DNA from: a virus
Virus record (IMG/VR): IMGVR_UViG_3300042350_000798
Span: 1 to 28,490 of that record
Length of the DNA stretch: 28,490 nt
Strand: one strand, 5' to 3'
Shown here: in pieces, positions 2,534 to 22,705 of the stretch
Layout: each line of letters starts with the position of its first letter
How positions within the stretch are numbered: position 1 is the stretch's first letter
The notes under the pieces: generated by a model
Told to the model about the DNA's origin: nothing
The model's database searches: none
Seen by the model: only the letters and a program-made list of their open reading frames with translations
Program-made: the position numbers and the translations under genes

Positions 2534-2562
2534 AGCCCGGCCTAACCCGCCGGGCTTTTTTT
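2534..2562 (+). terminator. Intrinsic-terminator-like hairpin pointing rightward, between polymerase and primase genes
   Basis: A perfect 8-bp GC-rich stem (AGCCCGGC at 2534-2541 with GCCGGGCT at 2549-2556) encloses a 7-base loop and is followed by seven T residues (2556-2562) on the + strand. This is a standard intrinsic terminator for rightward transcription. The surrounding genes are leftward: on their RNA the hairpin is preceded by an A run and followed by AAUAGGGG, so it lacks the U-tract needed to terminate them. It may stop antisense transcripts, or act on the leftward message as a processing or stability element. Confidence 0.6.
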
Positions 2563-4522
2563 AGCCCTTGCCATACCGCTCCATGACCTTGACTTCGGCC
2601 TTGAGCGGAAACCCCACGGCCCAATCAGGTGCCGTACACATTACCGTATTCAAAAGTTCTGCAACGACCTCGGCGGCCTCGTTAACACATTCGATAACGA
2701 TTTCGTCGTGAACGTGCAGCACCATACGTAATCCTTGACGGTCTAACTCACGCAGACTGTGCCGCAGCAAATCATTGGCGGTAGCCTGTGTGATGTTCTC
2801 GCAAGCCAAGCCTTTCCACAGTCGCGCACGCGGCCATTCGGTCGCATCTTGCGCGGGTTTCCAAGCGGCTTTGAGATAGCTCACACCGTCCGACTCCAGA
2901 CGGGCGAACGGGTAACATAGCACGCGGCCCGAGGGCAGGGCGTACCACAAGTGCTGACCGTCGTACATGTACGCCACGCGGCCAGCTTTGAACTCAGTGT
3001 TGACATTACGCATGGCGCGGGTGTAGGCGTCTTCTAATCTTTGCCAGTAGCGCACCGCCCACGGATTCGCGCGACGCCAACGGTCAACGATACGCTGCGC
3101 ATTCGCCTCGCTCATGTTGACGCCATACGCGCGGCCCATGGCGCTGAACGCACCGACGCCACCGGCAAAACCAAGCGAGAGGATGGCGACCTTGCCGATC
3201 TGGCGCTGCTCGTCGTTGACCTCGGTAGGCCCGACGCCGTAGATGCCAGCGGCCTCACGCTTGTAAATGTCACCCCCTGTGCGGAATATTTCAAGGACGG
3301 GCTCGGCGAGCGAATCGGCTGAGAGCCACGCGGTCGCACGGGCTTCGATCGCGGCCCAATCGGCCACGACGAACGCGTTACCTTTGGCCGGGATCAGCGC
3401 CGGGCGTAGCATGGACTTGAGCACGTCTGTCACGCGGATTCCGTATCGCGGAACAATCGCATGCCCGCGCACAAGCGCCTGGCGTACGGCCTCGGGCTCC
3501 TTGTGGCACTTGCGGGTGAAGTTGTGGACCTGCGCGCCGTAGCTTGACGCGCGGCCTGTGGCGCTGCCACCTGCAAAGATAAACGCACCGCGCACGCGGG
3601 CGTCCTCGACATCGGCGAGTTGCTTCAATCGGTTGAACTTAGCGACGGACGACGCCCATAGGTCATCTGCGCACTGCACGACATCGGCCACGTCGGGCGG
3701 CACTTCGTCGGCGTTGTCCATGGCGAGCAGGTTGGCCCGCACGGTCTTGTCAATGCTGTACTTCTTCTCGCCGTCCTTGTAGACGGTCATCAGCTTCTTA
3801 GCCTCGGGGCCGACGCGCTCCAGCACCCACTCGCGCATCTTCGGCGAGCGGACGGTAAGGATTTCTCCTTTCGTCACCTCGGCAACGATCTTCTCGATCT
3901 CTTGCAGTTCGGCCTCGGCGTAGCGCACGGCAGCCTCGCAGAGCGGCACGTCTACCCGCACACCCGCGTCGTTGATGCGCTCGTTGACGTGGTAATCGGC
4001 AAGCTCAGTGTCCGATAGGTCGCGCATCGCCTTGCTGATCTCGCGCATGGCGCGCACGTCCTGCTCGCAGTAGGCAATCATTTCGGCCATGAGCGCAGGA
4101 TCGTTGTTGAACGTGCCGTCGGCGCGGGGGATGGAGAGTTGACGGATCAACTGCGAGCCGCGATGGTCCTTCTTCATCTTAGACGAGAGCGCACGGCCAA
4201 TATCTTCGAGGCTGCCGGGCAGACAGTTGGCCCGCGCCTGTGCGGCCGTGCAGTAAAACTGTGTCAAGTCGAAGTTGATCTGACACACGTACCAAAAAAT
4301 AAGCCGCTCAAACGCAGCGTTGTGCGCGCGTATCTGGCCCTTGAAGTTGGCCACGCGCTCGGGGAACGGGTACTTGGGCAACCACGTCGCCACCTCGCCG
4401 TCATCGAACGCATAGGACATGCAAAGCACCTCAGTGCTCAAGTCCTGCGCATAGTTGTACGCGCCGGCTGACGGCAGGTCGCACCGGCTACGGGTTTCAA
4501 AGTCGATCCAGAGTATTGCCAT
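2561..4522 (-). CDS. Family A DNA polymerase with 3'-5' exonuclease (phage type)
   Basis: This is the replicative polymerase. Numbering here counts from an upstream in-frame TTG as residue 1; ATG 4522 (residue 2, giving 653 aa) is preferred. The proofreading domain has Exo I D8-F-E10, Exo II HN69..F72-E73 and Exo III Y152..D156. The polymerase domain has motif A VVADWAAIE (D389, E394), motif B R441..K445..F453 and motif C HVHDEI (H606, D607, E608). No 5'-3' exonuclease domain is present, as usual for phage enzymes. Exo II carries E where D is commoner. In motif B the positions equivalent to E. coli Pol I F762 and Y766 read L449 and F453. It lies between the small 4558-5199 gene and the primase-helicase, in one leftward operon. 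Its start is preceded by a hairpin rather than an adjacent Shine-Dalgarno site. Confidence 0.95.
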   Translation of the reverse strand: MAILWIDFETRSRCDLPSAGAYNYAQDLSTEVLCMSYAFDDGEVATWLPKYPFPERVANFKGQIRAHNAAFERLIFWYVCQINFDLTQFYCTAAQARANCLPGSLEDIGRALSSKMKKDHRGSQLIRQLSIPRADGTFNNDPALMAEMIAYCEQDVRAMREISKAMRDLSDTELADYHVNERINDAGVRVDVPLCEAAVRYAEAELQEIEKIVAEVTKGEILTVRSPKMREWVLERVGPEAKKLMTVYKDGEKKYSIDKTVRANLLAMDNADEVPPDVADVVQCADDLWASSVAKFNRLKQLADVEDARVRGAFIFAGGSATGRASSYGAQVHNFTRKCHKEPEAVRQALVRGHAIVPRYGIRVTDVLKSMLRPALIPAKGNAFVVADWAAIEARATAWLSADSLAEPVLEIFRTGGDIYKREAAGIYGVGPTEVNDEQRQIGKVAILSLGFAGGVGAFSAMGRAYGVNMSEANAQRIVDRWRRANPWAVRYWQRLEDAYTRAMRNVNTEFKAGRVAYMYDGQHLWYALPSGRVLCYPFARLESDGVSYLKAAWKPAQDATEWPRARLWKGLACENITQATANDLLRHSLRELDRQGLRMVLHVHDEIVIECVNEAAEVVAELLNTVMCTAPDWAVGFPLKAEVKVMERYGKG

Positions 4523-4530
4523 CAAAGAAT

Positions 4531-4557
4531 CGGGGGCCGTTGCCGACCCCCGCTCCC
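4531..4557 (-). promoter_or_regulatory. Shine-Dalgarno plus hairpin in polymerase translation-initiation region
   Basis: On the leftward RNA, GGGAG (4557-4553) follows the stop of the upstream gene. Next comes a 22-base hairpin (4552-4531): 9 pairs including one G-U, capped by a GCAA (GNRA) tetraloop. Then ATTCTTTG and ATG 4522 follow. The linear distance from GGGAG to ATG is 30 bases, too long for normal initiation. If the hairpin is folded out, 8 bases remain, the ideal spacing. Phage T4 gene 25 is a known precedent for a hairpin shortening the spacing. The sequence arrangement is seen directly; the function is inferred. Confidence 0.5.
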
Positions 4558-5199
4558 TTACGCAGCGCGTCGCCGACGAGCCGCAGCAGCCGGTGGAGGC
4601 TCATCGCCCTCCGGTGCCGACGGACCCTCACCTTCCATGGACACCCACTCGACGATCTCAAAGACCGGCGTGTAGATGCGGCCGTAGGACTTGTGCTGGT
4701 AGTGCTCCTTCTTCAGAACCACAACCGGCACAGGCTTACTCTGGTCACGCTCGACCTGGGCTGCGATGGCCGCCGCCAAGGTCTGCACGGCACGCTTGCC
4801 GCCCACCGACGTGGTGCTGTAGCGAGCCTCAAGGCCCGCGTCCTCACCCGTGATGCACTTCAAGCTCATGCCGACTTGCGTTTCCCAACCCTTCTTGCTC
4901 TGCGGGGGAGCCGGTTCGAGTTCCGGCAACGGCTGTGACACCGACACCATCTTCTCGCCGAGCACCTCGCCGTCGCCCCAAGCAATGAAGCCGTGAACGA
5001 ACGAGAAAGGATTGACTGCCCACTTGCTGTTTTCCTCAGCCTCGGTTTGATCCGCGCCAAAGACCCAGTGACCCGTCTTGTCCATCTTGAGGATCGCCGA
5101 CCCGACAGGGCCGACCTCCACTTCGATGTTACGCAGGGCGGTGGACAGGGATGACACAGCGGGGAGCCCCGCCTTACTGAACGCAGTGATATTAGACAT
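4558..5199 (-). CDS. Conserved phage protein, putative ssDNA-binding protein by position
   Basis: A 213-residue soluble protein with no catalytic motif that I can identify. It has alternating beta-strand-like segments, for example ILKMDKTGHWVFG and IYTPVFEIVEW, then a linker of Gly, Pro and Glu and a short basic end (ARRRRAA). It sits between the DUF2800 nuclease and the DNA polymerase. In other phages that position is commonly held by DUF2815, which is considered an ssDNA-binding protein; membership of that family is inferred from gene order, not shown by a motif. AAGGAG lies 9 bases before the ATG. The basic tail differs from the acidic tail of bacterial SSB and T7 gp2.5, so the binding role remains tentative. 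Confidence 0.85.
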   Translation of the reverse strand: MSNITAFSKAGLPAVSSLSTALRNIEVEVGPVGSAILKMDKTGHWVFGADQTEAEENSKWAVNPFSFVHGFIAWGDGEVLGEKMVSVSQPLPELEPAPPQSKKGWETQVGMSLKCITGEDAGLEARYSTTSVGGKRAVQTLAAAIAAQVERDQSKPVPVVVLKKEHYQHKSYGRIYTPVFEIVEWVSMEGEGPSAPEGDEPPPAAAARRRRAA

Positions 5200-22331: not shown

Positions 22332-22652
22332 TTACGGCAAGAGCCCGTAAGCCTGAAACCGCGACTCAAGCTGAGCAACGCGAGTCTGGAGGTTTGCAAT
22401 CACAGCCAACACCGTGTTGCCTTCGTTCTTAGTAACGAAGCCAAACGGGGTCGTCTGGGTCAAATCCTGAATCGCAAAGTCTGCCGGAGACGGGGCCGTG
22501 GACGTAATCGTCGTAAGCTGCGCCGTGAGAGCCGCACCTTCGGAAACCGGCGTCGTGCCGAAGAATCCGACCGTACCGCCCGCAGCGCCAATTACTGCAC
22601 CGTCAAGCTCTGGGTCCGAGAACGCAACACCAACCGCCTTTGTATTAGGCAT
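22332..22652 (-). CDS. Head fibre-like structural protein
   Basis: A 106-residue protein of the type GFFGTTPVSEGAALTAQLTTIT, then a phage-typical DFAIQDLTQTTPFGFVTKNEGNTVL and a C-terminal helical end (VIANLQTRVAQLESRFQAYGL) that could form a coiled-coil trimer. This pattern is like phage head-fibre or trimeric-fibre base proteins (for example the phi29 head-fibre family). It lies among the head genes after the coat protein. AGGAGT precedes the ATG. It would decorate the capsid or help hold a fibre; the family is recognised only from the motif. Confidence 0.7.
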   Translation of the reverse strand: MPNTKAVGVAFSDPELDGAVIGAAGGTVGFFGTTPVSEGAALTAQLTTITSTAPSPADFAIQDLTQTTPFGFVTKNEGNTVLAVIANLQTRVAQLESRFQAYGLLP

Positions 22653-22673: not shown

Positions 22674-22705
22674 GCCCCCTACGGTATCACCCGTAGGGGG
22701 CTTTT
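22674..22705 (+). terminator. Intrinsic-terminator-like hairpin pointing rightward, inside the head-gene operon
   Basis: A perfect 11-bp stem (GCCCCCTACGG at 22674-22684 with CCGTAGGGGGC at 22691-22701) with a 6-base loop is followed by TTTT (22702-22705) on the + strand. The genes on both sides are leftward. On their RNA the hairpin has AAAA before it and ACUGC after it, so it lacks a U-tract. It could be a barrier to antisense transcription, or partly stabilise or cut the leftward message between the coat-side genes and the adaptor genes. Confidence 0.55.

Follow-up and report, generated by a model that had tools for sequence, protein, structure and literature searches.

A predicted hairpin-split ribosome binding site before a phage DNA polymerase gene and similar junctions before unrelated genes

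The analysis of the junction upstream of the DNA polymerase gene in the window (the whole 28,490-nucleotide stretch of virus record IMGVR_UViG_3300042350_000798) points to a split, or "accommodated", ribosome binding site of the type known from T4 genes 25 and 38, an explanation that we regard as probable. The assignment is made on sequence grounds: the Shine-Dalgarno (SD) word is too distant from the start codon, no alternative SD is found, a hairpin lies between the two, the spacing left after folding is workable, and relatives carry changes that keep the pairs. Sites of this type were already known; the novelty lies in the element being portable and recurring in front of unrelated genes. 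The intergenic gap is 35 nt and contains the whole SD word, hairpin and linker, arranged as follows.

4558-5199, minus strand: upstream gene, 213 aa, C-terminus RRRRAA (phrog_9528; weak OB/SSB-like predicted fold)
4560-4558, minus strand: TAA stop codon of the upstream gene, directly adjoining GGGAG
4557-4553, minus strand: GGGAG, proposed SD (the SD word of the variants abuts the stem; GGAG/GCAG control, below)
4552-4544, minus strand: 5′ arm of the hairpin, CGGGGGTCG (sequence and MFE fold)
4543-4540, minus strand: GCAA (GNRA) tetraloop (GTAA in relative L014)
4539-4531, minus strand: 3′ arm of the hairpin, CGGCCCCCG (sequence and MFE fold)
4530-4523, minus strand: pyrimidine-rich linker ATTCTTTG, 8 nt (6-10 nt in relatives)
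2561-4522, minus strand: family-A DNA polymerase gene with its ATG at 4522-4520 (PF00476, 5.1e-28; phrog_17)

The hairpin CGGGGGTCG-GCAA-CGGCCCCCG has nine pairs, eight G-C and one U.G, with a computed stability of about -19 kcal/mol, and is present in the MFE fold of the transcribed strand. The distance from SD to ATG is 30 nt in linear sequence and 8 nt with the stem closed. No SD-like word was found in the 15 nt examined upstream of the polymerase ATG; such a word stands at normal distance in 19 of the 25 window starts examined. A sequence-only reading had described a hairpin between an SD and the polymerase ATG, an upstream stop codon adjoining GGGAG, and a spacing reduced from 30 to 8 nt upon folding, and all three were confirmed on the minus strand. 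Hairpins of this strength number four on the minus strand of the window, where dinucleotide shuffles gave 2.25 on average. A stem of such strength alone is not rare in this GC-rich genome; it is the location of the hairpin and its conservation that lie above chance. In Rfam 15 no family was matched at gathering score, the top match by E-value (E 0.62) scoring 16.9 bits where the cut-off is 42.7.

This arrangement could be explained as follows. GGGAG, adjoining the upstream stop, would pair with the 3′ end of 16S rRNA while the 22-nt GC-rich hairpin would remain folded and be looped out, so that the ATG would lie 8 and not 30 nt from the SD and could reach the P site. A ribosome ending the upstream gene would meet the SD immediately, and since the SD abuts the stop codon the junction probably also favours reinitiation. 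We infer both the use of GGGAG by ribosomes with the hairpin folded and the coupling of the two genes.

Hairpins of T4 reduce the distance between SD and AUG from 22 to 5 nt in gene 38 and from 27 to 11 nt in gene 25, and destabilising them lowers initiation; the layout of gene 25 is confined to close relatives (PMC3014915). Like gene 25 at the 26-25 junction, the window has a distant SD, a stable intervening hairpin, an intercistronic position and a workable folded spacing, and its structure is likewise conserved in close relatives only; with gene 38 it shares the shortening of the spacing by a hairpin. It differs from the T4 sites in phage and gene, in that the stem abuts the SD and the SD abuts the stop, in its very high GC content, and in that the element is swapped between genes. 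Beyond the T4 precedents (PMC3014915), no broader class of split sites was found in the literature searches.

The junction was compared among relatives. Searching viral contigs with the polymerase provided 80 loci, pattern scans from the polymerase start added more, and the compiled junction between upstream gene and polymerase comprised 112 distinct sequences. The hairpin is kept in all close relatives having the same junction, and the order of stop, SD, hairpin, linker and ATG is constant in the window clade. The SD touches a GC hairpin in 20 sequence variants, with a folded spacing of 6-11 nt and a linear one of 27-31 nt; the SD forms in the clade are GGGAG, TGGAG, AGGAG, AAGGAG and CGGAGA. 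Within the stem, pair 7 is either U.G or C-G, pair 8 has undergone a two-sided compensatory change from C-G to U-A (L017, L020 and L126), and pair 1 is broken in some relatives. The top consists of nine pairs with a GNRA loop or of seven pairs with a 7-nt loop, the loops seen among the variants being GCAA, GTAA, GCCTGCG and GCCCTCG. Covariation proper is thin, with one two-sided change, because the five basal G-C pairs out of nine never vary within the close clade and are uninformative in this respect.

Different stems were found in L098 (GGGCGGTC-GCAA-GACCGCCC) and L319 (GGGGCGGTC-GCAA-GGCCGCCCC), and an unrelated one, CGGGGGC-TTCG-GCCCCCG, in L310; in all three the SD abuts the stem and the ATG follows 7-10 nt after it. 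In the polymerase tree L098 and L319 form a sister clade of the window clade and L310 is distant. As L310 and L319 were retrieved by a query containing GGAG, only L098 and the window clade count as unbiased. The refuting outcome named in the sequence-only reading, an absence of compensatory changes in relatives, did not occur, given the compensatory change in pair 8, the C-G/U.G exchange in pair 7 and the unrelated stems, and the comparative evidence argues for the proposed likeness to T4 gene 25, in which a hairpin would bring the SD back into range. One relative (L077) has a hairpin at the junction and no clear SD in front of it, and many more distant relatives have other RNA structures there, often without a recognisable SD. 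Among annotated phage records MW202483 is the sole moderately close relative, and the region upstream of its polymerase start differs.

The element is portable. An inserted gene of about 195 aa separates the upstream gene from the polymerase in L006/L007/L009, L011, L104, L113 and L117 and encodes a DNA methyltransferase (phrog_757, 8e-75); the insert in L126 belongs to a different family, a Dcm-type methyltransferase (phrog_116, 4e-97). When a methyltransferase gene is inserted, SD and hairpin stay behind the upstream stop. The ATG of the phrog_757 gene then lies 6-8 nt past the hairpin (L006, L011, L104, L113 and L117), the L006 junction being TAA, GGGAG, hairpin, ATTCTTCA and ATG, and the Dcm-type gene begins 8-9 nt past the same element. 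No SD of their own was found at the starts of the inserted genes. One element is thus followed at equal distance by three unrelated genes that lack SDs of their own, which favours a role in ribosome binding and disfavours an operator specific to the polymerase. The series of gene swaps offers natural comparisons already at hand.

A similar layout recurs elsewhere. All viral contigs were scanned, before any gene, for the pattern GGAGCGGGGG N8-11 CCCCC N6-10 ATG, and for a control in which GGAG was replaced by a single other tetramer, GCAG. The recurrence depends on the SD word: at least 119 stretches matched with GGAG and 8 with GCAG (complete scan), in a sample where metagenome contigs are redundant and some raw matches resemble antisense tRNA arms. 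A junction counted as well formed if its stem had 6 pairs or more, if an ORF of at least 45 aa followed, and if an ORF of at least 60 aa ended no more than 7 nt before the tetramer. Distinct junctions of this quality numbered 41 among the GGAG matches listed and 1 for GCAG. The 41 represent about ten unrelated gene families, with the MEGxMAKSPAW family left out since it probably starts four codons further downstream; the sole GCAG junction belongs to this doubtful family as well. Neither pattern occurred in 369 bacterial genomes of one class, a sample too small to be informative.

Linkers without a T-run were seen before a tail gene (phrog_394, AACCACA), the VEIRRV family (CAACTGCTT), L352 (AACCCGCC) and L355 (TCCCGCTC), and these linkers scarcely pair with GGAG. 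The preference for GGAG is therefore explained neither by termination nor by pairing with the linker. A 60-aa gene (MKVLI..DCAA; L333, L336, L340, L342, L344, L359, L375 and L382) has the same layout and is terminator-like too, its lead consisting of stop, GGAG, GGGGGCGG-GCAA-CCGCCCCC, a T-run and ATG. No relative of the tail-gene, VEIRRV and 60-aa families was found among annotated phage records.

The sequence-only reading regarded the hairpin as a control element of the polymerase. This is contradicted, as the same element leads methyltransferase genes and the same layout is found before unrelated genes elsewhere; because of this recurrence the element looks like a portable gene-joining device rather than a polymerase-specific switch. 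A dependence of polymerase output on folding and on upstream translation, which the same reading proposed, may exist; what the sequence shows of it is the contact between stop codon and SD. We lean towards the broader view that split sites may form a widespread portable phage junction module (stop, SD, GC hairpin, 6-11 nt, ATG) which would have emerged in front of, or spread to, many unrelated genes, would allow the exchange of whole genes and would sometimes double as a terminator. Programs that predict start sites, like statistics on SDs, presuppose a linear spacing of about 5-10 nt, and such genes would be counted by them as having no SD. Should the recurrence be genuine, some phage genes apparently without an SD hide a strong one behind a hairpin, and a folded helix between SD and P site is accepted by the ribosome in more cases than has been supposed.

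The strongest alternative, itself rather unlikely, is a closed site in which the linker (TTCTTT) stays paired with the SD (AAGGGA) until a ribosome terminating on the upstream gene opens it. The MFE fold of every variant does extend the stem through the SD, GGGA is unpaired with a computed probability of only 0.01-0.11, and about 5.2 kcal/mol is needed to open it (unfolding of the whole structure costs 25.8 kcal/mol). However, the mean energy of SD-linker pairing was -4.5 kcal/mol against -5.2 kcal/mol for shuffled linkers, and 191 of 200 shuffles paired at least as strongly, so composition suffices to account for the pairing and nothing points to selection for occlusion. Pairing of the SD with the anti-SD, at about -7.2 kcal/mol, would be able to compete, and linkers of the tail gene and other families hardly pair with GGAG. 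Sequestration by the linker was rejected since the pairing, though real, is weaker than in the shuffles. In two relatives (L102 and L169) the loop sequence CCCCTT is complementary to AAGGG at the stop and SD, so the SD may be closed by a pseudoknot there.

An intrinsic terminator or attenuator between the genes, which would lower the amount of polymerase mRNA and make GGAG incidental, is unlikely in the window. The element shares with intrinsic terminators a GC-rich stem (eight of nine pairs G-C), a stable tetraloop and some T past the stem, and it was picked up by a terminator scan; it differs from them in that the window has no adequate T-run and in that GGAG and the spacing to the start are conserved. 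The window tail ATTCTTTG has a T-score of 1.08 (d'Aubenton-Carafa type), most of the clade lies at 0.8-1.1 and L101 at 1.61, and on this basis a terminator in the window was rejected. L098 has a real T-run (T-score 3.42), inspection by eye shows others in L310, L319 and the 60-aa gene family, and termination is possible in some relatives (L098, L310 and L319). A terminator gives no reason for the excess of GGAG over GCAG or for an ATG fixed 6-11 nt past the stem, and the layout occurs without a T-run in several families.

Still less probable is a role of the hairpin in protecting or processing the upstream message at its 3′ end, with the ATG reached by SD-independent reinitiation. The element does stay with the upstream gene when the next gene is swapped, and in L144, L151 and L053 hairpins follow directly after the same stop with an SD on their 3′ side. 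But these three lack GGAG after the stop, so that GGAG before the stem and an SD behind it seem to exclude each other, and a role at the 3′ end predicts neither an enrichment of GGAG nor a fixed spacing. Finally, an operator for autoregulation, to which the polymerase or the upstream protein would bind in the manner of T4 gp43/gp32, is highly improbable: the element does sit before a DNA polymerase gene and T4 gp43 does bind a hairpin close to where its own gene begins (PMC3014915), but the T4/RB69 gp43 operator is a protein-binding, repressing hairpin with a conserved loop, whereas here the loop and upper stem vary freely (GCAA, GTAA, GCCTGCG, GCCCTCG), the polymerase is of family A, and the gene behind the element is exchangeable for methyltransferase and unrelated genes, swaps that led to the rejection of a polymerase-specific operator.

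The upstream protein is labelled a nucleotidyltransferase in PHROGs (phrog_9528), a doubtful label. Its predicted fold has a weak OB-fold SSB likeness (best SSB chains E 0.06-0.1), all PDB matches being non-significant, and strongly resembles uncharacterised phage proteins. Methyltransferase genes from two unrelated families use the gap between this gene and the polymerase as an insertion spot (L006, L011, L104, L113, L117 and L126). Elsewhere in the window, an 8-pair hairpin at 2534-2556 directly follows the polymerase stop, with six T on its plus-strand side, and the gene after it has the ordinary layout with the SD TGGAG 3′ of the stem. An 11-pair hairpin at 22674-22701 precedes a gene starting at 22652 and has the SD AGGAG on its 3′ side.

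Other structured RNAs occupy the same junction in relatives. A candidate is present in L033, L078, L239, L261, L027, L028, L034, L250 and others; its outer helix covaries (GGGG/CCCC, GGGCC/GGCCC, GGGAGCC/GGCTCCC, GGGGGCT/AGCCCCC and GAGG/CCTC), its conserved internal loop GAAAGC...G(C/T)GAGTA resembles the bulged-G (sarcin-ricin) module, and its inner hairpin is variable. No Rfam family was matched at gathering score in the loci scanned. In L027, which is near the window clade, this element has the same layout as the window hairpin: TAAAGGAAA, closed RNA domain, GATTCTG and ATG. The family as a whole may tend to set a closed RNA domain between the stop of the upstream gene and the start that follows, and the window hairpin may be the smallest version of it. 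A different element of about 100 nt is found at the same junction in L162, L068, L054, L075, L255, L271, L287 and L237; it is closed by GGGGGCT/AGCCCCC, GGGGTGG/CACCCC or GGGAGGT/ACCTCCC and has the common inner motifs CAGC.TTCGAGGATG...CTGGCTTT. In L036, L044, L224, L205 and L305 the GAAAGC/GAGTA element is followed by a long hairpin, whose top is conserved and CTTGGTCGGTTCG-like and whose base is strongly paired (GGCTCTGGTCAT/ATGACCGGAGCC and variants).
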